Position numbers and translations under genes: made by a program. A stretch of DNA of 34,796 nucleotides from Alphaproteobacteria bacterium (GTDB lineage Bacteria; Pseudomonadota; Alphaproteobacteria; Caulobacterales; Caulobacteraceae): contig JAHJYN010000183.1 in assembly GCA_018826885.1 (NCBI GenBank), positions 1 to 34,796 on the forward strand, written 5' to 3'. Every line of letters begins with the position of its first letter. Position 1 is the first letter of the stretch. The notes under the pieces were generated by a model that ran no database searches, was not told the DNA's origin, and worked only from the letters and a program-made list of their open reading frames with translations. Positions 8,186-25,859 of the stretch are shown here, one piece after another.

Positions 8186-9232
8186 ATGGCCGGAGCGACC
8201 ATCTACGACGTTGCCGCCCGGGCAGGCGTCTCGATCAAGACCGTATCGCGCGTAGTCAACCGGGAAGCGAACGTCAGCCGGGCCATGCGCGAGCGGGTCG
8301 AGGAAGCCGTCGTCGCCCTGGGCTATCGACGCAGCCTGTCGGCGCGCGCCTTGGCGGGCTCGAACTCAACGATCATCGCCGCCCTCGTCGACGCCGGTCT
8401 GACCATCGAACACTGGAAGAGCGGACGCGGCAATGACTACCTCAGCCGGCTGGAGCTGGGCGCCCTGATGGAATGCCGGCGGGCCGAGTATCATCTGATG
8501 GTCGAACTCGTCGATCATGGCTCGGAAAACCTCGAGCGTGACATGCTGGCGCTGCTGGGGTCGATCCGCCCGGCAGGTGTGCTTCTCACACCTCCCAACT
8601 CCGATCACGCCCTGGTTCTGGACATTCTGGATGCCGCGGGCGTGGCCTATGCCCGTATCAGTCCGGAAATGGATCTGGGACGGGGCGTCTCGGTCCGGAT
8701 GGACGAGCGGCAGGCCGCTTTTGACATGACCCGGCACCTGATCGAACTCGGACATCGACGTATTGCGCACATTTCCGGGCCGGCGACCTATGCCGCCAGC
8801 CGCTTGCGCCGGGAAGGCTATGAACAGGCCTTGACCGAGGCCGGCCTGCCCCAGACCCCCTCCCTGATGATCGAGGGGGACTTTACCTTTGCCTCGGGAA
8901 TCACCGGCGTTGAACGGCTGCTGGCCGGCGAGCGTCCGACAGCAATCTTTGCCGCCAATGACGATATGGCGCTCGGCGTGCTGCAGGGTGCCGCTGCGGC
9001 GGGCCTCTCCGTGCCGTCCGATCTTTCCGTCGCCGGATTCGACGATACGCCCAGCGCGCTGTTCAGCACCCCACCCCTGACGACCATCCGCCAGCCGGTG
9101 GCCGAGATGGCGGCGGAGGCAACCCGCCGCCTGCTGCCGGCGGCGGGGCAGGACGAACCCGAGGCCGAGGGTCCGGTCGTCGTCGTCCCGTACTATCTCG
9201 TGGTGCGAGGTTCGACCGCCGTTTGCCCCTGA
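8186..9232 (+). CDS. LacI-family transcriptional regulator of the glucan/halogenase regulon
   Basis: DNA-binding repressor of the LacI/GalR family, 348 residues. The HTH is at about 5-25 (TIYDVAARAGVSIKTVSRVVN), the hinge helix follows (SLSARALAGSNS), and a periplasmic-binding-protein-like sugar-sensing core occupies 62-345 (HRRIAHISGP, PTAIFAANDDMALGVLQ, LSVAGFDDTPSALFSTPPLTTIRQP). Within 18 kb downstream there are five copies of TGACAGCGCTGTC(A/T), a CG-centred palindrome of the shape LacI proteins bind, each in front of a catabolic gene; it is the only LacI-type gene visible. No operator precedes lacI itself, so autoregulation is not indicated. The effector is probably a mono- or disaccharide released by the glycosidases. 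Confidence 0.95.
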   Translation: MAGATIYDVAARAGVSIKTVSRVVNREANVSRAMRERVEEAVVALGYRRSLSARALAGSNSTIIAALVDAGLTIEHWKSGRGNDYLSRLELGALMECRRAEYHLMVELVDHGSENLERDMLALLGSIRPAGVLLTPPNSDHALVLDILDAAGVAYARISPEMDLGRGVSVRMDERQAAFDMTRHLIELGHRRIAHISGPATYAASRLRREGYEQALTEAGLPQTPSLMIEGDFTFASGITGVERLLAGERPTAIFAANDDMALGVLQGAAAAGLSVPSDLSVAGFDDTPSALFSTPPLTTIRQPVAEMAAEATRRLLPAAGQDEPEAEGPVVVVPYYLVVRGSTAVCP

Positions 9233-9237
9233 CGGGT

Positions 9238-9251
9238 TGACAGCGCTGTCA
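9238..9251. promoter_or_regulatory. LacI operator 1 (GH3 promoter)
   Basis: A perfect 14-bp palindrome, TGACAGCGCTGTCA, starting 6 bp after the lacI stop and about 190 bp before the GH3 start. Preceded by T, it creates a TTGACA -35 hexamer inside the operator, with GAATGT 18 nt later as a weak -10. One of five copies in the window. Confidence 0.85.
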
Positions 9252-9291
9252 GGTTCACGCGAATGTGCGCCCCGGAGCGGTGATCAGATCG

Positions 9292-9415
9292 CACGGAGGG
9301 GGAAGCGGCGCGTGGACATCGCTCCGTGACTGCAGTGCCCTTTTGAGCGTCCGAAGACCGGGTTCAGAGCCATCTCCTCCTGAAAGCCTGGCGGCGGCGG
9401 GCAACCGTCGCCGCC
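9292..9415 (+). promoter_or_regulatory. Structured 5' leader of the GH3 gene
   Basis: Two inverted repeats lie between operator 1 and the GH3 ATG. CACGGAG (9292-9298) pairs with CTCCGTG (9322-9328). GGCGGCGGCGG (9390-9400) pairs over 11 bp (one G-T pair) with CCGTCGCCGCC (9405-9415), closed by a GCAA tetraloop of GNRA type. The second ends 25 nt before the start codon and is followed by CCTGTTTC, a poor U-tract. It may be the lacI terminator, an attenuator or an mRNA-stabilising stem. Confidence 0.5.
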
Positions 9416-9440
9416 CCTGTTTCGATGCCGAGGCCCCTTC

Positions 9441-11951
9441 ATGCGTGTTGCCGTTTCCGCCCTGGTTCTCCTGATGGCGCTTGGCCAGCCCGCCCTGGCC
9501 CAGCTCGCCGTTCCCGTCGACCCGGAAGCCGCCCGCGCGGATCCTGCAAACTGGCCGCGATCGGCCTCCCCTGCGGCCTTGACCGACGCCGAGACCGAGG
9601 CCTTCGTCGAAGACCTGCTGGGGCGGATGACGGTCGAGGAAAAGGTCGGCCAGCTGATTCAGGCCGACATCGCCTCGATCACCCCCGAAGACCTGCTGAC
9701 CTACCCCATCGGATCCATTCTCGCTGGCGGCAACTCTTCACCGGGCGGCAATGAGCGCGCCTCGGCCCAGGAGTGGGTTGATCTGGCCCGGAACTTCCGC
9801 ACGGCCAACATTGCGCGGGGCGGGACGGTGGTGCCGCTGATCTTCGGGATCGATGCCGTTCACGGCCACAACAATGTGGTGGGCGCGACGCTGTTTCCGC
9901 ACAACGTCGGCCTGGGCGCCGCGCGGGACCCCGATCTGATCCACCGGATCGGCGAGGCCACGGCCCTGGAGGTTGCGGCCACGGGTGCGGACTGGACCTT
10001 CGGGCCCACACTGGCCGTCCCGCGCGACGACCGCTGGGGCCGGGGTTACGAAGGCTATGGAGAGCACCCCGAGATCGCCCGGAGCTACGCCGGTCCGATG
10101 ACCCTGGGGCTGCAAGGCCCGCTGAGCGCCGACGGACCGATCGCCTATGGTCGCATCGCCGGATCGGCCAAGCATTTCCTCGCCGACGGCGGCACGGTCG
10201 GCGGCAAGGACCAGGGCGACTTCGTCGGGACCGAGCGCGAACTGATCGACATCCACCTCAGCGGCTATCCGCAGGCGATCGACGCAGGTGTGCTGTCGAT
10301 CATGATCAGCTTCTCCAGCTGGCAAGGCGTCAAACACTCCGGCAACGCCAGCATCCTGCGCGATGTGCTGTATGGACCGCTGGGCTTCACCGGCTTCACC
10401 GTCTCGGACTGGAATGCGCACGGGCAGATTCCCGGCTGCTCCAACGAGAGCTGCCCCCAGGCCATCAACGCCGGTATCGACATGCTGATGGCCCCGGACA
10501 GCTGGAAGCCGCTGTACGAGAACACCCTCGCCCAGGTGCGGTCGGGAGAAATCCCGATGGCGCGGGTCGACGAGGCCGTCCGTCGCATCCTGCGGGCCAA
10601 GGTCAAGGCTGGCCTCTTCCGGACGGAACGCCCGGTCGAGGGCCAGCTCGAACACCTGGGCTCGCCTGAACACCGGGCCCTGGCGCGAGAGGCCGTGCGC
10701 AAATCCCTCGTACTGCTGAAGAACGATGGGGTCCTGCCGATCCGTTCGGGCGCGAATGTGCTGGTCGTCGGGGCTGCGGCCGACGACATCGGCCAGGCGG
10801 CCGGTGGCTGGACCCTGACCTGGCAGGGCACGGGCAATACCAATGCCGATTTCCCCAACGCCCAGTCGATCTGGAGCGGCCTCGACGAAGCGGTGCGCGC
10901 CAGCGGAGGCACGGCGACCCTGAGTGTGGATGGCACCTGGTCGACGCGGCCCGACGTGGCCATCGTGGTGTTCGGGGAGACGCCCTACGCCGAGTTCCAG
11001 GGCGACCTGAGCCACGTTGATTTCCAGCCGGAACAGCCCCTGGCCATGCTGCGGCGGCTGCAGGCTGCGGGCATTCCGACGGTCGCCGTCTTCCTCTCCG
11101 GCCGCCCGATGTGGGTCAATCCCGAGCTGAACGCCTCCAACGCCTTCGTGGCCGCATGGCTGCCGGGCACCGAGGGCGGGGGCGTCGCCGACGTGCTGGT
11201 CGGCGGCCCCGATGGCACGCCGCGCCATGACTTCACCGGGCGGCTGAGCTTCTCATGGCCCCGGGACGCGACGGGGACTCCTCTCAATGTGGGCGACGAG
11301 AACTACGATCCCCTGTTCGCCTATGGCTACGGTCTGAGCTATGCGGCGCCCGGAGCGGTCGGTCCCGTATCGGAGGAAAGCGGCGTCGCCGCGAACGTCT
11401 CCAGCGTCGCCGACTATCTGGTTGACGGGCGTGTCGTCGAGCCGTGGTCGCTTGCTCTCGAAGACGCCGGAGGCCAGACGCGGGCAGGAGCCGAGGCCAG
11501 CATCGCCAGCCCGCGCGGCGCGGTCACCGTGGCCGTGGTCGATGATCTGGCCCAGGAAAGCGGACGGCGCCTGACCTTCGCCGGTGCCCCGCGTCAGCTG
11601 GCCCTGATCTGGGGGACCCCTGTCGATCTGAGCCGGCAGGCTAACGGCGAGATGGCGCTCAGCTTCCGCTATCGCGTTGACGCCGCACCGACGGATCGGG
11701 TGACCCTCTCGGCGGGGGCCGCCGATCCGGCCCGACTGGGCAGCCTCGACCTGACCCCGTATCTGACCGAAGGGCCGGTGGGCCAGTGGCGTACGATCAA
11801 GATCCGACTGTCCTGCTTCGGCGACGCCGGGGGGGATCTGACCGCGCTGGAGCGCCCGTTCCAGCTGTCGACGCCGGGACAGTTGACCCTGTCGGTGTCG
11901 GAGATCCGCCTCGCGTCCAACGAGGGCGATGCGGTCTGCCCGTCAGAGTGA
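9441..11951 (+). CDS. Secreted GH3 beta-glucosidase (ExoP-like exo-beta-glucanase)
   Basis: Glycoside hydrolase family 3 enzyme that removes glucose from the non-reducing end of beta-glucan oligosaccharides, probably periplasmic. The 836 residues begin with a signal peptide (VSALVLLMALGQPALAQ). The GH3 N domain covers about 50-390, with GIDAVHGHNN, SAKHFLADGGT and the nucleophile Asp323 in GFTVSDWN. The GH3 C domain covers about 410-625 (SLVLLKNDGVLPI, LFAYGYGLSY), and a C-terminal beta-rich extension of about 200 residues follows, as in ExoP-type glucanases. Operator 1 precedes it. Its last 9 bp overlap the convergent halogenase gene. The exact linkage (1,3, 1,4 or xyloglucan) cannot be read from sequence. 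Confidence 0.93.
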   Translation: MRVAVSALVLLMALGQPALAQLAVPVDPEAARADPANWPRSASPAALTDAETEAFVEDLLGRMTVEEKVGQLIQADIASITPEDLLTYPIGSILAGGNSSPGGNERASAQEWVDLARNFRTANIARGGTVVPLIFGIDAVHGHNNVVGATLFPHNVGLGAARDPDLIHRIGEATALEVAATGADWTFGPTLAVPRDDRWGRGYEGYGEHPEIARSYAGPMTLGLQGPLSADGPIAYGRIAGSAKHFLADGGTVGGKDQGDFVGTERELIDIHLSGYPQAIDAGVLSIMISFSSWQGVKHSGNASILRDVLYGPLGFTGFTVSDWNAHGQIPGCSNESCPQAINAGIDMLMAPDSWKPLYENTLAQVRSGEIPMARVDEAVRRILRAKVKAGLFRTERPVEGQLEHLGSPEHRALAREAVRKSLVLLKNDGVLPIRSGANVLVVGAAADDIGQAAGGWTLTWQGTGNTNADFPNAQSIWSGLDEAVRASGGTATLSVDGTWSTRPDVAIVVFGETPYAEFQGDLSHVDFQPEQPLAMLRRLQAAGIPTVAVFLSGRPMWVNPELNASNAFVAAWLPGTEGGGVADVLVGGPDGTPRHDFTGRLSFSWPRDATGTPLNVGDENYDPLFAYGYGLSYAAPGAVGPVSEESGVAANVSSVADYLVDGRVVEPWSLALEDAGGQTRAGAEASIASPRGAVTVAVVDDLAQESGRRLTFAGAPRQLALIWGTPVDLSRQANGEMALSFRYRVDAAPTDRVTLSAGAADPARLGSLDLTPYLTEGPVGQWRTIKIRLSCFGDAGGDLTALERPFQLSTPGQLTLSVSEIRLASNEGDAVCPSE

Positions 11952-13478
11952 CGCCGGGCAGTACTGTCTGAGGAAGGCCTCATGGTCGGGCATGGCACTG
12001 GCCGTGCGGGCGATGATGTGTCGTATGCCCGCCAGCCGGTTGCGCACCAGATCGGCCGGCAGGGCGTCGGCCATCGGATCCCGGGACCGGGGCTGGACAT
12101 TCTGACCCAGCAGGACGGCCAGCCAGCTATCGGCCGCAAACAGCTCATCGTCGAGCCGGAAAACCCGCCCCGTGGCGCGGAACAGATCCATGCGGGCCTG
12201 AAGACTGTCCGGAACCGCCATCGCTGCGACGTACCGCCAGAAGGCCGTGTCGTCCCGTCGCGTGGCCTTGTAGTGCAGGATAATGAAGTCGCGCACCTGC
12301 TCGAACTGCTGCTGCATCATGCGATTGTATTCGGTCGCCAGCAGGGGCTCGAAATCCCGATCGGGGAACAGCGCCAGCAGACGCGAGATCCCGGCCTGGA
12401 TCAGATGGATGCTGGTAGACTCCAGTGGCTCCAGAAAGCCTGACGACAGGCCCAGGGCGACCACATTGCCGACCCATTGGCTGCGCCGCCGCCCCGCCGT
12501 GAACCGCAGCGCCCGTGGCTCGGCGAGGGGCTCGCCCTCAAGGCCTTTCATCAGGGTTTCGAGCGCCGACTCCTCGGTGGTGAAGCCAGAGGCATGGACA
12601 TAGCCGTTGCCGGTCCGGTGCTGCAGCGGGATCCGCCAAGTCCAGCCGGCGTCACGGGCTGTGGATCGTGTGTAGGGCGTCAACGGGCCGACATTGCGCG
12701 TCGGCACCGCGAGGGCCCGGTCGCAGGGCAGCCAGTGGCTCCAGTCCTCATAGCCGGCCTGCATCGCTCCCTCGATCAGCAGGCCCTGGAACCCCGAGCA
12801 GTCGATGAACAGGTCGGCTTCGAGCGCGCGCCCGTCGTCCGTCCGGACGGCAGAGACATGTCCCGTGTCCGCGTCACGCATGACATCGGCGATGCGACCC
12901 TCGTGCCGGGTCACCCCCCGGCTTTCGGCGATCGCCCGCAGGAAGCGGGCATAAAGACCGGCATCGAAATGATAGGCGTACTTCAGGCTGGACAGCACGG
13001 TACGTGGGTCCGGAGACGGCAGGCACATCCGGTTGGCGAGGGCCGCGACCGTGGACAGATTGTAGTGGGCCAGGTCGCCGCCAAAGCCCTCCGCCTTCGC
13101 CCTCAGCCAGACCTGGGCGAACGGGACCGATTCGACATCCATGCCGATCGCCCCGAACGGATGGACATAGCGGTCGCCGAGAGCGCCCCAGTCGACAAAC
13201 TCGATGCCCAGCTTGAAGGAAGCCCCCGTACGTCGCATGAACTCGGCTTCGTCGATCCCCACCAAGGCGTTGAACGCGAGGATCGGCGGTATGGTCGCCT
13301 CCCCCACCCCAACAGTCCCGATCTGGTCCGATTCGATCAGGGACACCTCGGTCACACCATTGCCGGCAACGCGCGCCAGAGCGACGGCGGCCATCCAGCC
13401 GGCGGTACCGCCGCCGACGATCAGAATGCGCCGGAGGGGACGTCGCGCCGCCGCTGCAGCCGGGGGAATCGGGGTCAT
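11943..13478 (-). CDS. Flavin-dependent halogenase-like protein 1
   Basis: Member of the tryptophan-halogenase family (PF04820), 511 residues, cytoplasmic by absence of a signal. The FAD-binding GGGTAGW is at 22-28, GEATIP at 59-64, and the family's catalytic Lys is probably Lys89 (ASFKLGIEF). The WxWxIP signature is WTWRIP near 279. The region matching Glu346-Ser-Thr-Gly of PrnA is PLESTS with Glu353. In known enzymes FADH2 and oxygen give HOCl or HOBr, which passes to the Lys. Relatives in Brevundimonas (BrvH) and Xanthomonas lie near TonB receptors, brominate indole in vitro and have no known natural substrate. It diverges from the TonB receptor across operator 2 and converges on GH3 with a 9-bp overlap. 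Confidence 0.9.
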   Translation of the reverse strand: MTPIPPAAAAARRPLRRILIVGGGTAGWMAAVALARVAGNGVTEVSLIESDQIGTVGVGEATIPPILAFNALVGIDEAEFMRRTGASFKLGIEFVDWGALGDRYVHPFGAIGMDVESVPFAQVWLRAKAEGFGGDLAHYNLSTVAALANRMCLPSPDPRTVLSSLKYAYHFDAGLYARFLRAIAESRGVTRHEGRIADVMRDADTGHVSAVRTDDGRALEADLFIDCSGFQGLLIEGAMQAGYEDWSHWLPCDRALAVPTRNVGPLTPYTRSTARDAGWTWRIPLQHRTGNGYVHASGFTTEESALETLMKGLEGEPLAEPRALRFTAGRRRSQWVGNVVALGLSSGFLEPLESTSIHLIQAGISRLLALFPDRDFEPLLATEYNRMMQQQFEQVRDFIILHYKATRRDDTAFWRYVAAMAVPDSLQARMDLFRATGRVFRLDDELFAADSWLAVLLGQNVQPRSRDPMADALPADLVRNRLAGIRHIIARTASAMPDHEAFLRQYCPASL

Positions 13479-13546
13479 CTGGGTCCTGGGGCAGGGCGCG
13501 GAAGGGCGCGTTGATCTTATCCAAGCTGCATGATAGTGTCACGAAA

Positions 13547-13560
13547 TGACAGCGCTGTCA
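13547..13560. promoter_or_regulatory. LacI operator 2 (halogenase 1 / TonB receptor)
   Basis: Perfect TGACAGCGCTGTCA in the 118-bp divergent region, 69 bp from the halogenase 1 start and 37 bp from the receptor start. On the plus strand ATGACA, 17 nt and ATGAAT form a possible promoter; on the minus strand CTGACA, 17 nt and CACTAT do. One bound repressor could shut both directions. Confidence 0.87.
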
Positions 13561-13596
13561 GACTGTCGATGAATACATACTCCGAGGGGGGAAATC

Positions 13597-16500
13597 GTGG
13601 CTGTTACCCAAATGGGCGAAGGCGCCCCTGTGCGTGGAAGTCTGTCCGTCTTGCTCTGCGGCGCTTCGGGTCTGGCGCTGAGCGCGGTGTTGCTGGTGAC
13701 CCCGGCGAAGGCGCAGGACGCCGCCGGACAGGAGCCCGAGGCGACCGTGGTCGACGAGATTATCGTCACCGGTATCCGCTCCAGCCTGCGCAACGCCCAG
13801 AGCATCAAGCAGGACTCTGATGTCTTCGTCGACGCGATCAGCGCCGAGGACATTGGTGCCCTTCCCGACCGGTCGGTGACCGAAGCGCTGCAACGCGTGC
13901 CGGGCGTGTCCATCAGCCGCTTCGCCGGCGCCAACGATCCGGATCACTTCTCGGTCGAGGGGTCCGGCGTTGTGGTCCGCGGCCTGACCTTCGTCCGTTC
14001 GGAGCTGAACGGTCGCGACACCTTCTCGGCCAACAACGGGCGCGATCTGTCCTTCGCCGACGTGCCGCCCGAGCTGCTGGGCAGCGTCGAGGTGTTCAAG
14101 AACGTCTCCGCCGACATGATCGAGGGCGGCATCGCCGGCACGGTCAACCTGAATACGCGCCGCCCCTTCGACAGCCCCGGCCGGCTGATGGCCCTGTCGG
14201 TGGAGGGTAACTACGGCGACCTGGAGCAGAAGCTCACCCCCACGGTGTCGGCCCTGATCAGCGATCGCTGGGACACCGAGGCAGGCCAGTTCGGCTTTAT
14301 GCTCAGCGGCGTCTATTCCCAGCTCCAGTCGCGGTCCGACGGGCTCCAGTCGCTGAACTACCGGCTCGATCAGTCGACCGGCAGCGATCTGTGGACCCCC
14401 TCGGGCCTGGCATTCAGGACCCAGTCCTTCGACCGCGAGCGCACGGGTCTGGCGGCGGCGGGCCAGTGGCGCTCGAACGACCGCACCATGGAGGCGACCA
14501 TCCAGTACCTGCGGTCCGAGTCGACCCAGGCCTGGACGGAGAATGCGATCGAAACCATCGTCGACGACACGGGCAATCGCGTGCCCATTCCGGGCACCAC
14601 CTGGGAGTATGACGACGACGGGATCTTCACCAGCGGGATCATCACCTCGAACGCCGGCTGGCGCTCGGCCGATCCTTCCGTGCCGCTCGAAGGGATCCAG
14701 CACAGCTTCGTCAAACGTGGCGTCGATCAGCGCTACGTCACCAGCGATCTCGGCTTCAATCTGAAATGGTCGCCGACCGATCGCCTGCGCCTGAATTTCG
14801 ACGGTCAGTACGTGGAGTCGACGGTCCAGAACACGGACTTCCAGATCGCCAACTCCTTCTTCGCCGTCGACGTTATCGACCTGACCGGCGACACGCCGAC
14901 CCTCGGCCTGCTGCCGCCCAACGCCGGTGGCACGGGCGATATCGGCGCCTTCCTCGCGGACCCGTCGAACTACTACTGGCGCAACGCCATGGATCACAAG
15001 GAAGACAGCGAGGGCGATGAGTATGCCTTCCGGGCCGACGCCGAATACGATCTCGACGCGGGCTGGCTGGACTCGGTCAAGGTAGGTGCGCGGTACGCCG
15101 AGCGCGACCAGACCACACGGAACTCCCTGTACAACTGGGGAGTCCTGTCCGAGGTCTGGAACGGCGCCACCGGGCCGGTCTGGCTGGACCTGGGCAGCGT
15201 CGGTACGCCGCGCCTCACGGGCGGGCTGGCCAATGCCGGACTGTTCAACTTCTCGGCCATGGGCGTGCCGGTCTCGGCCTTTGGCTATGCTGGCAATCCC
15301 GGCAGCGACTATGACGCCGCTGTCGCCTTCGCACTCGGCATCAACCAGATCTGGGGCGGTGGCGGATGGGTCCCGCTGAGCATGCGGTCCAATGTCATTC
15401 CGGGCACGGATTATACGCCCGGCGAAATCAATGCGACCAACGAACAGACCCAGGCGGCCTACGCCCTGATCAAGTTCAGCAATGATGCTGACCCCATCTG
15501 GGGCGAGAGCATCTCGATCAGCGGCAATGTCGGCATCCGCTATGTCGAGACGACGATCACGGCAGAGGGCGCACTCGCCTTCCCGACGCAGGCCCAGGTC
15601 TTCTCGGGTGACTGTAGCGCCCCGCCGGCGCCGGGAGGCTCCATTCCCGCCTTCTGCCTGCTGACCCCGGCCGAGCAGGCCCGGGCGCTCGCCTTCGCGA
15701 CGGGTGCCTCCATCCCCAACAATGCCGAGAACACCTACGACAACTGGCTGCCCAGCGTGAACATCAAGGTCGGACTGACCCCCGACTTCCTGCTGCGGTT
15801 CGGCTATACCGAAGCGATCCGGCGGTCCGATCTCGGCCTGACGCGCAATCAGCTGCAGATCACGCCGCGCGTCGTCAACAACCAGTTCCTCGGTTTCGAG
15901 GCCCAGGCCGGCAACACCTTCCTCGAACCCATCCGGTCCCGGCAGTTCGACCTTTCGGCAGAGTGGTATTTCGCGCCGACCGGCTCGCTGACGCTGTCCC
16001 TGTTCCACAAGTCGCTGGAAGGCGTGATCACCAACGGCTTCTACGACCGTACCCTGACGAACGGCGGGGAGACCTACGACGTCTATGTGCGGGGCCCCAC
16101 GAACGCCACCGAGGACGGGGAAATCCAGGGCTTCGAATTGGCCTATCAGCAGTTCTATGACTTCCTGCCCGGCTGGTGGTCCGGCTTCGGTATCCAGGCC
16201 AACTACACCTATATCGACAGTTCGGGCGTGCCCCAGGAGAACCTGCAGGCCGACAAGGCCAATCCTGGTGGTTCCGAGCCGGCCATCGACACCAGCCTGC
16301 TGCCACTGGAGTCGCTGTCGGAGCACAACTTCAACTTCGCCGCCATCTACGAGAACGACACGATCTCGGCCCGTCTCGCCTACAACTGGCGGTCCGAATA
16401 TGTGCTGACGACGCGCGACGAAATCGTCCCGTTCGCCCCGATCTATTCGGACGATACGGGCCAGCTGGACGCCTCGTTCTTCTACACGGTCAACCCCACC

Positions 16501-16644
16501 TTCAAGGTCGGGGTCCAGGGGGTGAACCTGCTGGATGAAACGACCCGGACCTTCCAGGTGCTGGACGACCAACTGCTGCTGGCGCCGCGGTCCTGGTTCA
16601 AGAACGACCGTCGCTTCTCCTTCGTCGTCCGGGCGACGTTCTAG
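13597..16644 (+). CDS. TonB-dependent receptor, Caulobacter/Xanthomonas type
   Basis: Outer-membrane active transporter, 1015 residues, of the large class (TIGR01782-like) that imports oligosaccharides in Caulobacter and Xanthomonas. Signal region SLSVLLCGASGLALSAVLLVTPAKAQ; TonB box near 48 (VDEIIVTG); plug at about 60-185 (DVFVDAISAEDIGALPDRSVTEALQRVPGVSI, IEGGIAGTVNLNTRRPF); then a beta-barrel ending in the aromatic VVRATF expected for BAM recognition. The start is a GTG with an excellent GAGGGGGG ribosome binding site 5 nt upstream. Operator 2 lies just upstream, so uptake is induced together with halogenase 1. The substrate is inferred from neighbours to be a beta-glucan oligosaccharide. 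Confidence 0.94.
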   Translation: MAVTQMGEGAPVRGSLSVLLCGASGLALSAVLLVTPAKAQDAAGQEPEATVVDEIIVTGIRSSLRNAQSIKQDSDVFVDAISAEDIGALPDRSVTEALQRVPGVSISRFAGANDPDHFSVEGSGVVVRGLTFVRSELNGRDTFSANNGRDLSFADVPPELLGSVEVFKNVSADMIEGGIAGTVNLNTRRPFDSPGRLMALSVEGNYGDLEQKLTPTVSALISDRWDTEAGQFGFMLSGVYSQLQSRSDGLQSLNYRLDQSTGSDLWTPSGLAFRTQSFDRERTGLAAAGQWRSNDRTMEATIQYLRSESTQAWTENAIETIVDDTGNRVPIPGTTWEYDDDGIFTSGIITSNAGWRSADPSVPLEGIQHSFVKRGVDQRYVTSDLGFNLKWSPTDRLRLNFDGQYVESTVQNTDFQIANSFFAVDVIDLTGDTPTLGLLPPNAGGTGDIGAFLADPSNYYWRNAMDHKEDSEGDEYAFRADAEYDLDAGWLDSVKVGARYAERDQTTRNSLYNWGVLSEVWNGATGPVWLDLGSVGTPRLTGGLANAGLFNFSAMGVPVSAFGYAGNPGSDYDAAVAFALGINQIWGGGGWVPLSMRSNVIPGTDYTPGEINATNEQTQAAYALIKFSNDADPIWGESISISGNVGIRYVETTITAEGALAFPTQAQVFSGDCSAPPAPGGSIPAFCLLTPAEQARALAFATGASIPNNAENTYDNWLPSVNIKVGLTPDFLLRFGYTEAIRRSDLGLTRNQLQITPRVVNNQFLGFEAQAGNTFLEPIRSRQFDLSAEWYFAPTGSLTLSLFHKSLEGVITNGFYDRTLTNGGETYDVYVRGPTNATEDGEIQGFELAYQQFYDFLPGWWSGFGIQANYTYIDSSGVPQENLQADKANPGGSEPAIDTSLLPLESLSEHNFNFAAIYENDTISARLAYNWRSEYVLTTRDEIVPFAPIYSDDTGQLDASFFYTVNPTFKVGVQGVNLLDETTRTFQVLDDQLLLAPRSWFKNDRRFSFVVRATF

Positions 16645-16651
16645 AGCGTTG

Positions 16652-16687
16652 GCGGGGCGCGCCGGCCTTCACGGCTGGCCGCCCCGC
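16652..16687. terminator. Likely bidirectional terminator hairpin between TonB receptor and cupin gene
   Basis: GCGGGGC (16652-16658) pairs with GCCCCGC (16681-16687). Inside, GCGCCGGCC and GGCTGGCC continue the stem with one bulged C and one G-T pair around a TTCAC loop, giving a GC stem of about 15 bp. It sits between convergent genes. No T-run follows on either side, so efficiency is uncertain. Confidence 0.5.
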
Positions 16688-16703
16688 AGTCGTCTCTCGG
16701 GTG

Positions 16704-17693
16704 TCAGCGTCTGGTCAGGGCGCCGAGCAGGAAGGCCTTCAGGGTCCGGGCCGTCTCCGCGCTGAGCGGGCCCTGAATACCGTGGGCGTGGCTCGGCAGA
16801 TGCACCGGCGGCACGGCGTCGGGGCCGAAGACAAAGTGCTCAAACATCGCCCGCCACGCCGCGCGCGTCGGCTCCGGCAGGGCGCGGACCGCCAGCATGG
16901 CATGCACCAGGGCCTCAAAACCCGAGCCCGCCAGCGGATGGCTATCCCACCAATAGTTCACCAGCACATTGAACCGCTCTGACGCGCGCACGTGATGCCA
17001 CCACAGCGGCGGGATATAAATCGCATCGCCGGGCTCAAGCTCTGCGCTGACGGCCGCCGCTGCCGCATCCACAAACCGCGGATAGGCCTGGGCGTCGACG
17101 GCGCCCGGCCGCACCATGCTGACGGGCTGGCCTGCAAGCGTGTGTTCCAGCGGTCCCGGGTAGAGATTGCCCGTCTGGTCAGGCGGAAACAGCGTGAAGC
17201 GACGGCGGCCCGCCACAACGCAGGCCAGGTTCTCGGAAGCGTCGAAATGCGTTTGCACCTCGACGGCATTGCCCAGCCACAAGCGCGGAACGGCCGTCTC
17301 CGGCACGCCCGGCGGTGGATTGGCGCTCGAGAACTCCGGCAATCCCACCGGCAGCGGCGCCGCGCCCATGTAGAGGGCCGGAGCGCCGTCGACAGGGGCC
17401 GCCAGCAGATCGGCCACCATTGCTGACACTGTGATCGGTTCGCGAACAAAGTTGTGGCCGCGCAAATCGGGGCCATAGAAAAAATGCCCGCCGGCCCCGG
17501 GAGGTGCCCGCATGCGTGTGCTGGACGCCCCGGAATCCATGCCGGTCAGATAGGCGGCAATCTCGCTGTCCCCGCGGCGCGCGGTCTCGACGGCCGGCCA
17601 ATGCGCGACATGGCCCCGGAGCACGACCGGTTGGCCGGACGCCCGCGCATGGGCGAGGGCCGAAACGGCGTCTGATGGATTCACCTCAATCAT
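16704..17693 (-). CDS. JmjC/cupin-8 domain protein (Pass1-like)
   Basis: Cupin_8-family protein (JmjC-like fold) of 329 residues, likely an Fe(II)/2-oxoglutarate dioxygenase. The metal triad is visible: His149 and Asp151 in THFD, and a His at 233-234 in PPLWWHHV. WLGNAVEVQTHFD, RRRFTLFPPDQTGNLYPG and LEPGDAIYIPP are typical of this group, which recurs next to TonB receptors and tryptophan halogenases in Caulobacter and Xanthomonas relatives. The track start at 17852 runs back through the operator; the ATG at 17693 (MIEVNPSD) is preferred, giving a normal length. Operator 3 lies only 12 bp upstream. The substrate is unknown; hydroxylation of a protein or small molecule is possible. Confidence 0.85.
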   Translation of the reverse strand: MIEVNPSDAVSALAHARASGQPVVLRGHVAHWPAVETARRGDSEIAAYLTGMDSGASSTRMRAPPGAGGHFFYGPDLRGHNFVREPITVSAMVADLLAAPVDGAPALYMGAAPLPVGLPEFSSANPPPGVPETAVPRLWLGNAVEVQTHFDASENLACVVAGRRRFTLFPPDQTGNLYPGPLEHTLAGQPVSMVRPGAVDAQAYPRFVDAAAAAVSAELEPGDAIYIPPLWWHHVRASERFNVLVNYWWDSHPLAGSGFEALVHAMLAVRALPEPTRAAWRAMFEHFVFGPDAVPPVHLPSHAHGIQGPLSAETARTLKAFLLGALTRR

Positions 17694-17704
17694 GCAATGT
17701 GCCT

Positions 17705-17718
17705 TGACAGCGCTGTCT
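17705..17718. promoter_or_regulatory. LacI operator 3 (cupin-8 / MFS-halogenase operon)
   Basis: TGACAGCGCTGTCT, the one copy with a single mismatch (final A to T). It sits between the divergent cupin gene (start 17693) and MFS gene (ATG 17784). The preceding T makes a TTGACA -35 for the plus strand. On the minus strand a CATAGT at 17729-17734 could be a -10, placing the operator at the transcription start. Confidence 0.82.
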
Positions 17719-17783
17719 TTGAACGGCGCACTATGCCCCGGGAGCCCCGCGCTAGACAGGGACCGGGAGGCGAAAGTTTGGAA

Positions 17784-19073
17784 ATGAGCGGTGCGACATT
17801 GCCTAGCGATACCGCAGCGATGACAGTGGTCGCCGCGATGCCCCCAGATCACATCCCAAAGTCACCTGCCGGTGCGGTAGGCGGAGGGTTCATCGCCCTC
17901 TACACCCTGGCCCAGATCGGGGCCTTCATCGCCTTCATCCCGATGCTCAACCTCCTTCTGCCCTTGAAGGCCGAGGCTGTGGATCTGTCCGGAAAGGCCA
18001 TTCTGCTCAGCCAGGTCACCGTCCTCGGGGCCATCGTCGCCGGGTTCGCGAACCTGGCAGCGGGTATTCTCAGCGACGCGACGCGAGGCCGGTGGGGGCG
18101 CCGTCGGCCCTGGATCGCGGGCGGGGCGGTGGCCGTCGCCGGAGCCCACGGCCTCGTCTATCTGGCGGACGGACTCTGGAGCCTCATCGCCGCGGTCGTG
18201 GCGTTTCAGGTGGCGCTCAATCTGATGTTTGGCCCGCTCAATGCCGTGCTCGCCGATCGCGTGCCGGACCGGCAGAAGGGCACAGTATCCGCGCTCCAGG
18301 GCCTGGCGCTTCCGGCGGCAGGGCTGTTTTCAGCCGTGGTTCTGGCCATGGCCCTCGGGGGGCTCGCGGAGCGGTTCCTGATCACGGCGCTGGCCGTTCC
18401 ACTGCTGGTCCTCCCCTTCGCCCTTCTGGTGCCCGACCGTAGTGAGGCAGGGCTTCCCGTCGCGCGGCCCCGGCTGAGTCTGCGGGTCCTGGCCGATCGG
18501 GACTTCCGGCTGGCATTCACCTCCCGCCTGCTGGTGCAGGTCAGCATCACCCTCAATGTCCTGTATCTTCTGTTTTACCTTCAGGACGTGGCAACCCTCC
18601 CGGACCTTTCCGCCACCGCCGCAGAAACGGCCTTCGGCTGGCTCCTGACCGCCGGAACCCTGGGCGGACTGATCTTCGGTTTCGTCGGCGGCATTTTGTC
18701 GGACCGCACGCGGCGACGCCGGCTACTGGTGATGAGCGGCGGCCTGCTGATGGCCGTGGGCGCCGGCCTGATGGTGGCACAGCCGGTGTGGCCCGGGCCC
18801 CTGCTGGCCCAGATCGTGTTCGGCATAGGCCTCGGCCTCTATTCGACCGTCGACATCGCTCTCGTGGCGGAGGTGCTGCCCGATCGGTCGAGCGCGGGCC
18901 GGGACCTCGGCGTCATGAACCTGGCCATCACCATGCCTCAGATCGCCGCCCCCCTGATTGGCCTGGGCGTGCTCCTCGCTTTCGGCGGCGAGCTCCGATG
19001 GGTCTTCGCGATCTCGGCGGCCTTCGCACTTGTGGGCGCAATCGCGGTCATGGGCATCCGGAGAGTCCGATGA
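17784..19073 (+). CDS. MFS transporter, GPH/SLC45-like sugar permease
   Basis: Inner-membrane major facilitator of 429 residues with about 12 hydrophobic segments. The loop 2-3 signature SDATRGRWGRRRPWIAGG is typical of glycoside/pentoside/hexuronide and sucrose-type cation symporters. A matching half-repeat signature SDRTRRRRLLVMSGG starts the second half. It probably carries a glucoside or disaccharide from periplasm to cytoplasm. The track start at 17697 would include the operator in the coding region, so the ATG at 17784 (MSGATLPS) is chosen. The stop overlaps the next ATG (ATGA), making a three-gene operon with two halogenases. Confidence 0.88.
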   Translation: MSGATLPSDTAAMTVVAAMPPDHIPKSPAGAVGGGFIALYTLAQIGAFIAFIPMLNLLLPLKAEAVDLSGKAILLSQVTVLGAIVAGFANLAAGILSDATRGRWGRRRPWIAGGAVAVAGAHGLVYLADGLWSLIAAVVAFQVALNLMFGPLNAVLADRVPDRQKGTVSALQGLALPAAGLFSAVVLAMALGGLAERFLITALAVPLLVLPFALLVPDRSEAGLPVARPRLSLRVLADRDFRLAFTSRLLVQVSITLNVLYLLFYLQDVATLPDLSATAAETAFGWLLTAGTLGGLIFGFVGGILSDRTRRRRLLVMSGGLLMAVGAGLMVAQPVWPGPLLAQIVFGIGLGLYSTVDIALVAEVLPDRSSAGRDLGVMNLAITMPQIAAPLIGLGVLLAFGGELRWVFAISAAFALVGAIAVMGIRRVR

Positions 19074-20590
19074 CCGGCCGGAGCATACGGCGTGTGGTGA
19101 TCGTCGGCGGCGGTACGGCGGGCTGGATGACGGCGGCGGCGCTGGCCCGCCTGGTCAAGACCCCGGACGTGTCGATCCAGTTGATCGAGTCGGCGGAAAT
19201 CGGAACGGTGGGCGTCGGGGAGTCGACCCTGCCCCACATTCGCGCCTTCAACGAGCGCCTTGGGATCGACGAGGCCGCCTTCATGAAGGCCACCCGGGCG
19301 ACGTTCAAACTGGGGATCCAGTTCGAGGACTGGGGCCGCATCGGCGATCGCTACATTCACCCCTTCGGCGACTACGGTATGCCGGGTGGCGATGCGCCCT
19401 TCCATCACTACTGGCTCAAGGCGAGCGCTGAAGGCGACGTCGGACCGATCGACGACTATTCCCTGCCCGTCGTTGCCGCGCGGGAAGGACGGTTCGCGCC
19501 GCCGTCCGACAACGCCCGTTCCCTGATGTCGACCTATGGCTATGCCTATCAGCTGGACGCCTCTCTCTACGCCCGGTTCCTGCGTACCCTGTCCGAGGCG
19601 GAAGGCGTGGAGCGCCTGGAGGGCCGGATCGTCGACACTCGACGCGACCCGGAAAACGGTCTGATCACGGGCGTAGAAATGGAGAACGGTTCGATTGTCG
19701 AAGGGGACCTGTTCGTCGACTGCTCCGGCTTCCGTGGCCTGCTGATCGAACAGGTGATGGGGGCAGGCTTTCGCGACTGGTCCCACTGGTTACCCTGCGA
19801 CCGTGCGGTCGCCATGCCGTGTGCCACCGACCAGGCCACCGTTCCCTACACACGCGCCCGCGCGCTTGAGGCAGGCTGGCAATTCCGCATCCCGCTCCAG
19901 CACCGGGTCGGCAACGGCTACGTCTACTGCAGCGCCTTTCTGGACCCGGATGCCGCGACCGAGCGCCTGACCGGCCTGCTGGAAGGCGAGGCCCTGAATA
20001 CGCCTAACCATCTCCGCTTCACCGCCGGGCAGCGGCGACAGACGTGGATCGGCAACTGCGTCGCCATCGGCCTCTCGGGCGGCTTCATCGAACCCCTGGA
20101 GTCGACCAGCATCTATCTGATCCAGCAGGGCATCACACAGCTGATCGCCCTGTGGCCCGATCGCGACTTCGCCCCCCGGGCCATCGACGAATACAATCGC
20201 TGGATGGATCTGGAGTTCGAGCGGATCCGCGACTTCATCATCCTGCACTATTGCGCCACGGAACGGGACGACTCCGAGCTGTGGAATCACGTCCGCACCA
20301 TGCCTCTGCCCGACAGCCTGTCGGCGAAGCTGGCGTTGTGGCGCGAGGGCGGCGTGGTGCAGGAGTACCGCGACGGCCTGTTCCTGCATCCCAGCTGGGT
20401 GGCCGTGTATCTCGGACAGAGAATGCGGCCGGCGCGCTGGCATCCACTGGCCGACCGTCGCGAGACGGCCCAGCTCCTGCCCGCCCTCGCCCGTCTGCGC
20501 CAGACCGTCGCCTCGGCCGCCGCGCGTCTGCCATCCCAGGACGCCTACATTGCCGGCTATTGCGACTGGCGCACCCAGGAGGCTTCATGA
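19070..20590 (+). CDS. Flavin-dependent halogenase-like protein 2
   Basis: Second PF04820 paralog, 506 residues. FAD motif GGGTAGW (13-19), GESTLP (50-55), probable catalytic Lys80 (ATFKLGIQF), PLESTS with Glu344. The WxWxIP signature is altered to WQFRIP (Trp270, Phe272), unlike the other two copies. The track's 600-residue version begins inside the MFS gene; the ATG at 19070 overlaps the MFS stop as ATGA and puts the FAD motif near the N-terminus as in the family. Its stop overlaps the next halogenase ATG in the same way. It is controlled with the MFS gene from operator 3. No flavin reductase is adjacent. Confidence 0.9.
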   Translation: MTGRSIRRVVIVGGGTAGWMTAAALARLVKTPDVSIQLIESAEIGTVGVGESTLPHIRAFNERLGIDEAAFMKATRATFKLGIQFEDWGRIGDRYIHPFGDYGMPGGDAPFHHYWLKASAEGDVGPIDDYSLPVVAAREGRFAPPSDNARSLMSTYGYAYQLDASLYARFLRTLSEAEGVERLEGRIVDTRRDPENGLITGVEMENGSIVEGDLFVDCSGFRGLLIEQVMGAGFRDWSHWLPCDRAVAMPCATDQATVPYTRARALEAGWQFRIPLQHRVGNGYVYCSAFLDPDAATERLTGLLEGEALNTPNHLRFTAGQRRQTWIGNCVAIGLSGGFIEPLESTSIYLIQQGITQLIALWPDRDFAPRAIDEYNRWMDLEFERIRDFIILHYCATERDDSELWNHVRTMPLPDSLSAKLALWREGGVVQEYRDGLFLHPSWVAVYLGQRMRPARWHPLADRRETAQLLPALARLRQTVASAAARLPSQDAYIAGYCDWRTQEAS

Positions 20591-22116
20591 GCCCGCCCCC
20601 CTCCGGTCACCCGGCCCGTATCCGCAGCGTCTGCATCGTCGGGGGCGGCACCGCCGGCTGGATGACGGCTGCGGCCCTCGCCAAGGTACTCGGCCCCCAC
20701 TACGCCGAGATCACCCTGGTCGAATCCGATGAGATCGGCATCGTCGGCGTCGGCGAGGCGACCATTCCCCAGATCCGCCTGTTCAATCAGATGCTGGGCC
20801 TCGACGACGACGACTTCGTGCGCCGCACCCACGGCAGCTTCAAGCTGGGGATCCAGTTTGTCGACTGGGGCAAGCCGGGCGACCGCTACATCCACCCCTT
20901 CGGCCGCTACGGCATCGACATGGCGGGCGTGTCCTTCCACGCCTTCTATCTCAAGGGGCGGATGCTGGGCGAGACGCATGATCTGGCGCGCTATTCGCTC
21001 GAGGCCTCGGCAGCCCAGGCCAACCGCTTCATGCGGTCCATCGACGCCGGCAAGTCACCGCTGTCCAACGTCGCCTATGCCTATCATTTCGACGCAGGCC
21101 TCTATGCCCGCTATCTGCGCGAATATGCCGAGGCGCGAGGCGTGCGGCGCGTCGAGGGGCGCATCGTCAACGTCGCGATGCGCCCCGCCGACGGCTTTGT
21201 CGAGAGTATCGCCCTGCAGGATGACCGCCGCATCGCGGCCGACCTGTTCATCGACTGCTCCGGCTTCCGCGGCCTGCTGATCGAACAGGCCCTGCAGACC
21301 GGTTACGAGGATTGGTCGCGCTGGCTGCCGTGCGACCGGGCCCTGGCCGTGCCCTGCGAGAGCGCGGGCGCGCTGACGCCCTACACCCGCTCCACAGCCC
21401 GCGACGCCGGCTGGCAGTGGCGTATCCCGCTGCAGCACCGGATCGGCAATGGCTATGTCTATTGCAGCGGCCACCTGTCGGATGATGAGGCCGCGCGGAC
21501 CCTGCTGGCCAATCTGGACGGCAAGCCGCTGGCCGATCCCCGCCCGATCCGCTTCACGACCGGGCGTCGCAAGGCATTCTGGAACCGCAATGTGGTCGCC
21601 CTCGGTCTGGCGTCAGGCTTCATGGAGCCGCTGGAGTCCACCAGTATCCACATGATCCAGAGCGGCATCGCCCACCTGCTCACCATGTTCCCCGACCGCG
21701 ATTTCGACCCGGCCGAGACCGCCCGCTACAACCGCGTAATCGGCGAGGAGTACATTCGCATTCGGGACTTTCTGGTGCTGCACTATCACGCCAATCAGCG
21801 CCCCGGCGACTTCTGGGCGCAGATGCGCGGGATGGAGATCCCTGAAGGGCTGCGGGAGAAGTACGAGCTCTATCGTGCCCGGGGCCGGATCTATCGCGAG
21901 AACGATGAGCTGTTCAGCGAGACCAGCTGGTTCGCCGTCATGGCCGGCCAGAACCTGTGGCCGGCGACCTATGATCCCGTCGCCGATGTGCTGGACGATG
22001 CGGAGACGCTCAAGCGGCTCGCGGGCGCGCGGGGCGTCTACGACGCCTGCCTCGCCCAGATGCCGGGCCACGCCGACTTCATCGCGCGGAACTGCGCGAT
22101 GGCGGCCGCCGCCTAG
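20587..22116 (+). CDS. Flavin-dependent halogenase-like protein 3
   Basis: Third PF04820 paralog, 509 residues. FAD motif GGGTAGW (19-25), GEATIP, probable catalytic Lys86 (GSFKLGIQF), WQWRIPLQHR with the standard WxWxIP motif, and GFMEPLESTS with Glu350. The track start at 20044 lies in another frame inside halogenase 2; the ATG at 20587, coupled by ATGA, is the real start. The sequence is clearly homologous along its whole length to the two other copies, implying duplication. Its TAG stop is shared, through the palindrome CTAG, with the stop of the convergent GH5 gene. Confidence 0.9.
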   Translation: MSPPPSGHPARIRSVCIVGGGTAGWMTAAALAKVLGPHYAEITLVESDEIGIVGVGEATIPQIRLFNQMLGLDDDDFVRRTHGSFKLGIQFVDWGKPGDRYIHPFGRYGIDMAGVSFHAFYLKGRMLGETHDLARYSLEASAAQANRFMRSIDAGKSPLSNVAYAYHFDAGLYARYLREYAEARGVRRVEGRIVNVAMRPADGFVESIALQDDRRIAADLFIDCSGFRGLLIEQALQTGYEDWSRWLPCDRALAVPCESAGALTPYTRSTARDAGWQWRIPLQHRIGNGYVYCSGHLSDDEAARTLLANLDGKPLADPRPIRFTTGRRKAFWNRNVVALGLASGFMEPLESTSIHMIQSGIAHLLTMFPDRDFDPAETARYNRVIGEEYIRIRDFLVLHYHANQRPGDFWAQMRGMEIPEGLREKYELYRARGRIYRENDELFSETSWFAVMAGQNLWPATYDPVADVLDDAETLKRLAGARGVYDACLAQMPGHADFIARNCAMAAAA

Positions 22117-23084
22117 GGGTTCATCTCGCGCAGCATCTGTCGGACCAGCCGGCCCGACGGGCTAATCATGTCGTCGGTCCAGCCCCCCTGCCCCGATGCG
22201 CCAGGCCTCAGGGCGGCCGAGGTCTCGTCCTTGTCGGTGATCGACCAGTTCAGATGGCTGATGCCGTGGGCTTCCATGAACGCCCACCACAGCCGGGTCT
22301 CCGCCTCGTCGAGGATGCCGTTCCCGCTCGCCTCGCTGGTGCCCCACTCGGTGACGAACAGGGCCGCACCGAGGTCCATCGCTTTCAGCGCCTTGTCGCG
22401 CAGTTCCTGCCGATGCGTCCCGGCATAGAAATGCAGGGTGTAGGCGACATTGGAAAACGGCAGCGGATCGGCGGCGGCGATGTCCACGTCCTGAGACCAT
22501 GACGGTGTCCCGGCAATGATCAGGTTGTCAGGGTCGACGGCGCGAATGGCCGGGATGACCACCATGTGGAAGGGCTTGACCACTTCGGCCCAGCCATGGG
22601 TGTTGAGCGGCTCGTTATAGACCTCATAGATCAGGTTGGGGTGCCGCCCGTATTTGGCGGCGATCTGCGCAAAGAAGGCGGCGGCAGCCTCGGGATGCGG
22701 CTCATGCGCATGCCAGTCGACGATGACGTAAAGGCCTTCGGCGAGCGCGGCCTCGATGACGGCCTCTGCCCGGGCCATCTCCTGCTCCGGGTTGGCCAGA
22801 TAGCCGTCGTGGTCGACGGCGATGGCCGCCCGCACCACGGTGACGTTCCAGTCCGACCTCAGATGGGTCACTGTCTCGGCGTTGTAGAACTGCCCGCCCC
22901 ACTGACTCCAGAACAGCGACATGCCGCGCAGAACGACCGGAGCCCCGCTCTGGTCCACCACCCGCCCGCCCTCGATCCGCAGGGCGCCATGGCGCTCCAC
23001 GGGCGTCTGGGACAGGGCACAGCCCGCGAACAACAGCGTCGACACGCCAGCGAGCACGGACAGGAGTTTGCGCAAGTTTGCCAT
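22113..23084 (-). CDS. GH5 endoglucanase lipoprotein
   Basis: Glycoside hydrolase family 5 (cellulase A clan) enzyme of 323 residues that cuts internal beta-glucan bonds. It begins with a lipoprotein signal (VSTLLFAGC, Cys22), so it is likely anchored to a membrane and may act at the cell surface. Family motifs: LRGMSLFWSQW, VVRAAIAV, YVIVDWHAH, acid/base Glu158 in YEVYNEP, HFYAGTHR and nucleophile Glu246 in FVTEWGTS. The start is followed upstream by GAGG and, 14 bp away, by operator 4. It is a compact single domain with no carbohydrate-binding module. It supplies oligosaccharides for the TonB receptor and GH3 enzyme, by inference. Confidence 0.94.
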   Translation of the reverse strand: MANLRKLLSVLAGVSTLLFAGCALSQTPVERHGALRIEGGRVVDQSGAPVVLRGMSLFWSQWGGQFYNAETVTHLRSDWNVTVVRAAIAVDHDGYLANPEQEMARAEAVIEAALAEGLYVIVDWHAHEPHPEAAAAFFAQIAAKYGRHPNLIYEVYNEPLNTHGWAEVVKPFHMVVIPAIRAVDPDNLIIAGTPSWSQDVDIAAADPLPFSNVAYTLHFYAGTHRQELRDKALKAMDLGAALFVTEWGTSEASGNGILDEAETRLWWAFMEAHGISHLNWSITDKDETSAALRPGASGQGGWTDDMISPSGRLVRQMLREMNP

Positions 23085-23098
23085 GCCTCAGCTTCGCT

Positions 23099-23112
23099 TG
23101 ACAGCGCTGTCA
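23099..23112. promoter_or_regulatory. LacI operator 4 (GH5 / cation antiporter)
   Basis: Perfect TGACAGCGCTGTCA, 14 bp upstream of the GH5 start and 146 bp upstream of the antiporter. TTGACA is present on the plus strand; on the minus strand TTGACTTGACTGACAG precedes it. Its closeness to the GH5 ATG makes GH5 the surest target. Confidence 0.86.
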
Positions 23113-23258
23113 GTCAAGTCAAATCTCTCATTCGTACGGCCTGGCCCGTTCACTTCGGGTTGCAGGGACACTAGAGGCCCGCGGGGTCCGGGGGAATACA
23201 GAAGCAGGATCATGCGCTTTCCTGACCTTGCACGGGCTGACGGGACGGGAACGCCGAG

Positions 23259-24461: not shown

Positions 24462-24490
24462 CCAGCGCAGGTCACAAGCCGGCCCCGCCC

Positions 24491-25783: not shown

Positions 25784-25845
25784 TCAACTCCCCCCGATCA
25801 ACCCGGATGAGGCCATCGCCGGCCCGGATCGCTTTCATTTATGTT

Positions 25846-25859
25846 TGACAGCGCTGTCA
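25846..25859. promoter_or_regulatory. LacI operator 5 (FHS sugar transporter)
   Basis: Perfect TGACAGCGCTGTCA, 62 bp upstream of the transporter start. On the minus strand CTGACA is followed by an AT-rich CATAAATGAAAG that could contain the -10. It is the last copy, marking the right edge of the regulon. The rest of 25860-26077 shows no gene or clear signal. Confidence 0.86.

Follow-up and report, generated by a model that had tools for sequence, protein, structure and literature searches.

Why does a locus equipped for the uptake and cleavage of sugars encode three flavin-dependent halogenases? The question is raised by a 34,796-nucleotide stretch from a member of the Caulobacteraceae (JAHJYN010000183.1 of assembly GCA_018826885.1), hereafter the window, which is contig C150 of a 2.70-Mb draft genome that is 91% complete. 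A compact gene cluster at positions 8186-25859 combines a LacI-family regulator, a TonB-dependent receptor, sugar transporters, glycoside hydrolases (GH) of families GH3 and GH5, a cupin_8 oxygenase and the halogenases hal1 (11943-13478, minus strand), hal2 (19070-20590, plus strand) and hal3 (20587-22116, plus strand). The original prediction for this locus rightly recognized three paralogous halogenases of 511, 506 and 509 residues and a cupin-8 oxygenase within 11943-22116. For the substrate it turned to glucan use, proposing a carbohydrate-linked aromatic, a plant phenolic glucoside or a self-made signal. The comparisons discussed here point in another direction: hal1-3 are very probably part of a conserved module that is accessory to carbohydrate TonB receptors.

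Halogenases and sugar receptors across genomes

The comparison set comprises about 160 related loci (denoted L plus a number), including loci from a survey of 41 Caulobacterales genomes in which 150 receptor matches were listed and 17 candidates were scored per genome. In that survey, at least 64 of the 78 full-length halogenases have a TIGR01782 receptor no more than 8 kb away, against 2.4 expected. The same pattern is seen in loci from GTDB: a receptor is positioned within 6 kb of the halogenase in 57 of the 58 loci that are at least 20 kb long, although these loci were drawn from the 80 top-scoring matches to hal1-3, which biases them toward close kin. They span Caulobacter, Sphingomonas, Novosphingobium, Pseudoxanthomonas, Gilvimarinus, Ideonella and others, i.e., several proteobacterial orders. 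Moreover, partnership with a halogenase requires only 11 changes on the receptor tree, compared with 38.5 when labels are shuffled, and one receptor clade of 56 consists entirely of halogenase-partnered members. Carbohydrate-active enzymes (CAZymes) are encoded nearby in 29 of 35 halogenase-linked receptor loci, as opposed to 5 of 40 unlinked ones (a sample of 40 from 114 loci, mostly from the top of the list). Halogenase distance tracks receptor distance (partial correlation 0.21) over CAZyme content (0.07); both relationships are weak.

The CAZymes that accompany this halogenase clade belong to GH3, GH5, GH10, GH13, GH31, GH42, GH43 and GH68, and the sugars concerned include alpha-glucan (GH13), sucrose (GH68) and xylan (GH10/GH43). 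Because receptors for many different sugars are accompanied by one and the same clade, what these loci share is the receptor and not an aromatic linked to beta-glucan; a beta-glucan-specific substrate was rejected on the basis of this spread. Under the original proposal, the enzymes would act on aromatics attached to, or arriving with, the polysaccharide, for example phenolic decorations or aryl glucosides. The presence of GH3 and GH5 in the cluster would fit, as would the halogenases in xylan-type GH10/GH43 loci, given that plant xylans can bear phenolics. However, the sucrose and alpha-glucan loci, whose usual substrates are without aromatics, carry the same clade, and a plant phenolic glucoside is unlikely for this reason. 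In addition, the N-termini of GH3, GH5 and the receptor look like those of exported proteins, whereas hal1-3 are taken as cytosolic because no signal sequence precedes the FAD motif (as read directly from the sequences). A glucoside should thus be cleaved before it meets the halogenases. Collectively, these considerations make polysaccharide-borne aromatics quite improbable as substrates.

The halogenases and their shared operator

All three proteins match PF04820 end to end (456-458 model positions, E values of 1e-189 to 1e-197), scoring 655 (hal1), 632 (hal2) and 653 bits (hal3) against a cut-off of 21 bits, and they are the sole full-length members of this family in the draft genome. Compared with hal1, hal2 and hal3 show 53-54% identity. 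The catalytic Lys and Glu are present in each (Lys89 and Glu353 in hal1), and the WxWxIP motif is present in hal1 (WTWRIP) and hal3, while WQFRIP replaces it in hal2. The closest solved structures are 6Y1W (Xcc4156 of Xanthomonas campestris), 9LUQ and 6FRL (BrvH of Brevundimonas BAL3), at 480-530 bits, whereas tryptophan (Trp) halogenases reach at most about 306 bits. PrnA, RebH and PyrH share the fold family, the catalytic Lys/Glu, GxGxxG and WxWxIP (WQFRIP in hal2) with hal1-3, but their match is about 170-240 bits weaker. Alignments to RebH and PrnA stop short of the C-terminal region where the Trp-binding motif would sit, and group C enzymes have been described as lacking this motif (PMC8269204). 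Judged by sequence, hal1-3 are predicted to be functional BrvH-type (group C) flavin-dependent halogenases and are probably brominases.

BrvH and Xcc4156, whose sequences were taken from structure alignments, are 47-50% and 49-51% identical to hal1-3, respectively, with catalytic residues in common in the case of BrvH. BrvH brominates indole weakly and does not act on Trp (PMC5945002); Xcc4156 is active on indoles and not on free Trp (PMC7336383). The native substrate of both is unknown. On these points the original prediction agrees with the literature. BrvH itself is 97% identical to halogenases L125_9989 and L123_8381, both from the window's genus, in loci with the order GH3-TonB receptor-halogenase-halogenase-LacI. 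The adjoining halogenase is 42% identical to BrvH, which matches the 42.7% published for the gene beside brvH (PMC5945002). The genus of the window is very probably Brevundimonas, as for BrvH, given that L022 (B. intermedia) and L108, the latter from a genome of the window's genus, have identical receptors. The BrvH locus nevertheless differs from the window in having a type 15 halogenase, a receptor of another clade, two halogenases instead of three and no cupin_8. The nearest relatives of Xcc4156 in the comparison set (L121 and L126) differ in being accompanied by SapC and cupin_8.

Do these proteins halogenate in vivo? One alternative is that they are flavin monooxygenases, or handle FADH2/O2 or hypohalite, with halide being used only in vitro; QhpG, which dihydroxylates a protein Trp (PMC7876137), would be the model. 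Profile matches to QhpG and to the LodB/GoxB maturases were detected, far under their cut-offs (25-30 bits against 240 for QhpG), and some loci retain additional copies without the catalytic Lys or Glu, suggesting that non-halogenating members are kept. On the other hand, hal1-3 preserve both residues and match halogenases hundreds of bits better. Moreover, FADH2- and halide-dependent halogenation has been demonstrated for BrvH, and the K83A substitution abolishes its activity (PMC5945002). We therefore regard a monooxygenase role as rather unlikely.

The proposal of an operator common to the halogenases, GH3, GH5 and the TonB receptor is borne out by five copies of a short motif. Copy 1, TGACAGCGCTGTCA, precedes GH3 (9238-9251; exact, and kept in three congeners). 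Copy 2 (13547-13560, exact) lies in the gap between hal1 and the divergently oriented receptor gene. Copy 3 (17705-17718, one mismatch) occupies the gap between cupin_8 and the divergent MFS-hal2-hal3 operon (MFS, major facilitator superfamily transporter). Copies 4 (23099-23112) and 5 (25846-25859; present in L105 too) are exact and precede GH5 and the GluP-type transporter gene. Nine matches with up to three mismatches were observed, against 1.86 expected, and none of 100 shuffles reached nine. In the 2.7-Mb draft genome, all exact 13-mer copies are inside the window. The orthologous loci of congeners L105, L107 and L109 carry four to five operators at the same places, the L107 and L109 stretches ending within GluP. 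The LacI-family protein of the window presumably binds the five operators. With one LacI gene and five common operators, the sequence places the receptor, transporters, GH3, GH5, cupin_8 and the three halogenases in one regulon, and these proteins should be co-produced on the inducing sugar.

The conservation of this arrangement bears on whether the halogenases merely hitch-hike with sugar loci without having a role there. Related loci without a halogenase do exist (L167, L170 and L171), and the L171 genome has none at all. This possibility appears very improbable in light of the ratios of nonsynonymous to synonymous substitution rates between congeners (0.06-0.10 for hal1, 0.07-0.10 for hal2 and 0.05-0.10 for hal3), the operators conserved in congeners, the ATGA stop/start overlaps that link MFS to hal2 and hal2 to hal3, and an association that spans several proteobacterial orders.

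The halogenases also fall into distinct types. When 231 halogenases were grouped into types by cutting their tree at one cut-off, the types recurred in fixed combinations, one of each: among 61 loci with more than one halogenase, a type is repeated in only one, compared with 9.2 expected and a minimum of 2 in 1000 shuffles. This argues for a division of labor. Many four-gene loci hold one degenerate copy in which the Lys/Glu/WxW set is incomplete, a type that the window lacks. The Lys and/or the Glu is missing from it, as is, in many cases, the second Trp of WxWxIP, and it thus resembles a conserved pseudo-enzyme beside active copies (L065 6724, L082 11498, L019 8451, L073 8406, L072 6783, L021 6920 and others).

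What the halogenases may modify

Our tentative proposal is that the halogenases, together with an optional cupin_8, modify the receptor or another polypeptide of the module. Each of the presumably cytosolic halogenases would target a separate position among the aromatic residues in a polypeptide co-produced with the module, the receptor before export being the most likely target. The JmjC-like cupin_8 would serve as an optional second modifying enzyme, and the modification would tune sugar binding or receptor stability. Two features favor a polypeptide target: no partner other than the receptor is nearly constant, and halogenase sets follow receptor clades. Peptide substrates were suggested earlier for BrvH and Xcc4156 (PMC7336383). 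Related flavin enzymes acting on peptide Trp also favor such a target and provide the template for this mechanism: peptide Trp is halogenated by MibH and SrpI (PMC10858898), which, like QhpG (PMC7876137), have related folds and act on Trp within a polypeptide. Each of them, however, serves a dedicated peptide or subunit. In the regulon, intergenic gaps are about 60-210 bases, and no room was seen for a long precursor-peptide gene (without a systematic search for small open reading frames).

The partner genes are a further reason for favoring a polypeptide, since cupin_8, DUF6445 or SapC occur near 9 of 35 halogenase-linked receptors and near none of the 40 unlinked ones. The cupin_8 gene of the window (16704-17693, minus strand; PF13621, 203 bits, E 1.3e-59) encodes a JmjC-like, predicted iron- and 2-oxoglutarate-dependent oxygenase whose HxD...H iron triad aligns with that of JMJD5. 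Its closest solved relatives are JMJD5, FIH, JMJD7 and TYW5, which are mostly protein hydroxylases. DUF6445 (PF20043; e.g., L030 9228-9980) is found near halogenases in 9 of the 58 GTDB and 4 of the 35 Caulobacterales loci, and in none of the 40 unlinked; no solved relative of it was found by sequence. SapC was rejected as a constant partner: most genomes have it once, as a core gene, and it is found close to halogenases only in some cases.

Alternatively, the substrate could be a small aromatic, indole-like or phenolic, that is imported or made on sugars and functions as a signal or in defense; the link to the receptor would then reflect joint regulation only. In vitro, BrvH and its Xanthomonas counterparts accept free indole and indole derivatives for bromination (PMC5945002, PMC7336383), the pocket is not built for free Trp, and the enrichment of CAZymes near halogenase-linked receptors would be in keeping with a metabolite produced during carbon surplus. 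Yet the activity on indole is low (PMC5945002), and no recognizable biosynthesis or export gene is present within the regulon, which also applies to the self-made signal considered originally. Furthermore, halogenase sets track receptor clades over CAZyme content, if weakly, and a single small compound would hardly seem to call for between two and four non-redundant halogenases in each locus.

Several observations weigh against a receptor target. The number of receptor Trp residues correlates with the number of halogenases in the raw data (rho 0.43), but not when independent contrasts are used (r 0.007), and the idea that more halogenases go with more receptor Trp was accordingly rejected. The near-invariant Trp residues are all kept in the maltodextrin receptors of L167, L170 and L171, which have no halogenase in the locus. 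cupin_8 is gone from L105 (10007-10284, genome G012), where the three halogenases and the operator are kept. For 14 of the 78 halogenases in the Caulobacterales survey, none of the listed receptors lies within 8 kb; one of these halogenases is beside ALAD. Finally, we know of no halogenated outer-membrane protein. Because the two predictions about receptor Trp failed, the target is offered as a guess, with less than even confidence, and a small molecule is considered almost as likely a substrate.

L167, L170 and L171 form one clade of GH13 maltodextrin loci beside the halogenase-bearing L116, L122, L075 and L100, which amounts to a natural experiment. In their receptors, two conserved Tyr are replaced (Y420N and Y570L, L122 numbering). 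These replacements were not used as a halogenase signature, as they go back to a single event in evolution and the columns concerned are variable elsewhere too. Contrasts of residues across the full receptor set were likewise set aside, since they mainly mirror receptor subfamilies.

A more far-reaching version of the receptor proposal is that, in many Proteobacteria, receptor-specific halogenase sets with JmjC-like or DUF6445 partners brominate or oxidize aromatic residues of sugar TonB receptors after translation, and that this is the native function of BrvH and the Xanthomonas enzymes; in this general form we consider it unlikely. If the receptor were the substrate, it would represent a new way of controlling how widespread aquatic and plant-associated bacteria take up nutrients, and a new class of outer-membrane protein modification. 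Irrespective of the target, bromination catalysts that are well studied but have no known biological role are now given a genomic home. The receptor-centered regulons indicate the condition to examine (growth on the inducing sugar), the strains to use and the molecules to analyze, receptor and envelope proteins ahead of metabolites. No paper connecting tryptophan halogenases to the TonB receptors of sugar loci was found in a search that left out subscription journals and most preprints, so novelty is unproven, and specialists may know of the link through annotations.

Other genes of the regulon and related sequences

The regulon is otherwise built as expected for sugar uptake. The regulator (8186-9232, plus strand; 348 residues, PF00356 and PF13377), the presumed repressor, has orthologues in L105, L107 and L109. 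The GH3 beta-glucosidase-like enzyme (9441-11951, plus strand; PF00933, PF01915 and PF18559) has a signal peptide-like N-terminus, and its best NCBIfam matches, both partial and under the cut-off, are an exo-beta-1,3/1,6-glucosidase and BglX. The TonB receptor (13597-16644, plus strand) belongs to the TonB-Xanth-Caul subfamily (TIGR01782, 700 bits against a cut-off of 310). The GPH-like sugar MFS transporter (17784-19073, plus strand; PF07690 and PF13347) was assigned a start downstream of the operator. The GH5 glucanase-like enzyme (22113-23084, minus strand; PF00150, E 9e-60) has a lipoprotein-like N-terminus, and the GluP-type glucose/galactose MFS transporter (24491-25783, minus strand) matches TIGR01272 at 215 bits (cut-off 202). 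Between GH5 and GluP, what its sequence suggests is a probable cation/proton antiporter is encoded at 23259-24461 on the plus strand, and operator copy 4 is upstream of both this gene and GH5.

With receptor, regulator, inner-membrane transporter and CAZyme, the set described for CUT (carbohydrate utilization containing TonB-dependent receptor) loci of Xanthomonas is complete (PMC1790865). A study of LacI regulons predicted BglR1-3 for beta-glucosides in Caulobacterales (PMC4052901). The window resembles both kinds of system in that a regulator is grouped with a TonB receptor, with transporters and with glycoside hydrolases; it differs in that its regulon includes halogenases, which the text of neither paper mentions (PMC1790865, PMC4052901).

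Some halogenases of the comparison set have other surroundings. At L137 7726-10488 and L133 8911-10488, one is beside ALAD and an enoyl-CoA hydratase and one beside a subtilase, with no TonB receptor seen nearby. L134-L136 hold weaker-scoring halogenases, again with no TonB receptor seen nearby, one of which (L135) is beside a TPR-sulfotransferase. A phage origin was rejected, as the named phage halogenases are cyanophage enzymes that are only about 31-33% identical. Two unannotated fecal entries filed as 'Bacteriophage sp.' (MT837902.1 and MT835646.1) encode halogenases 57-58% identical to hal3; these entries are probably bacterial DNA filed as phage.

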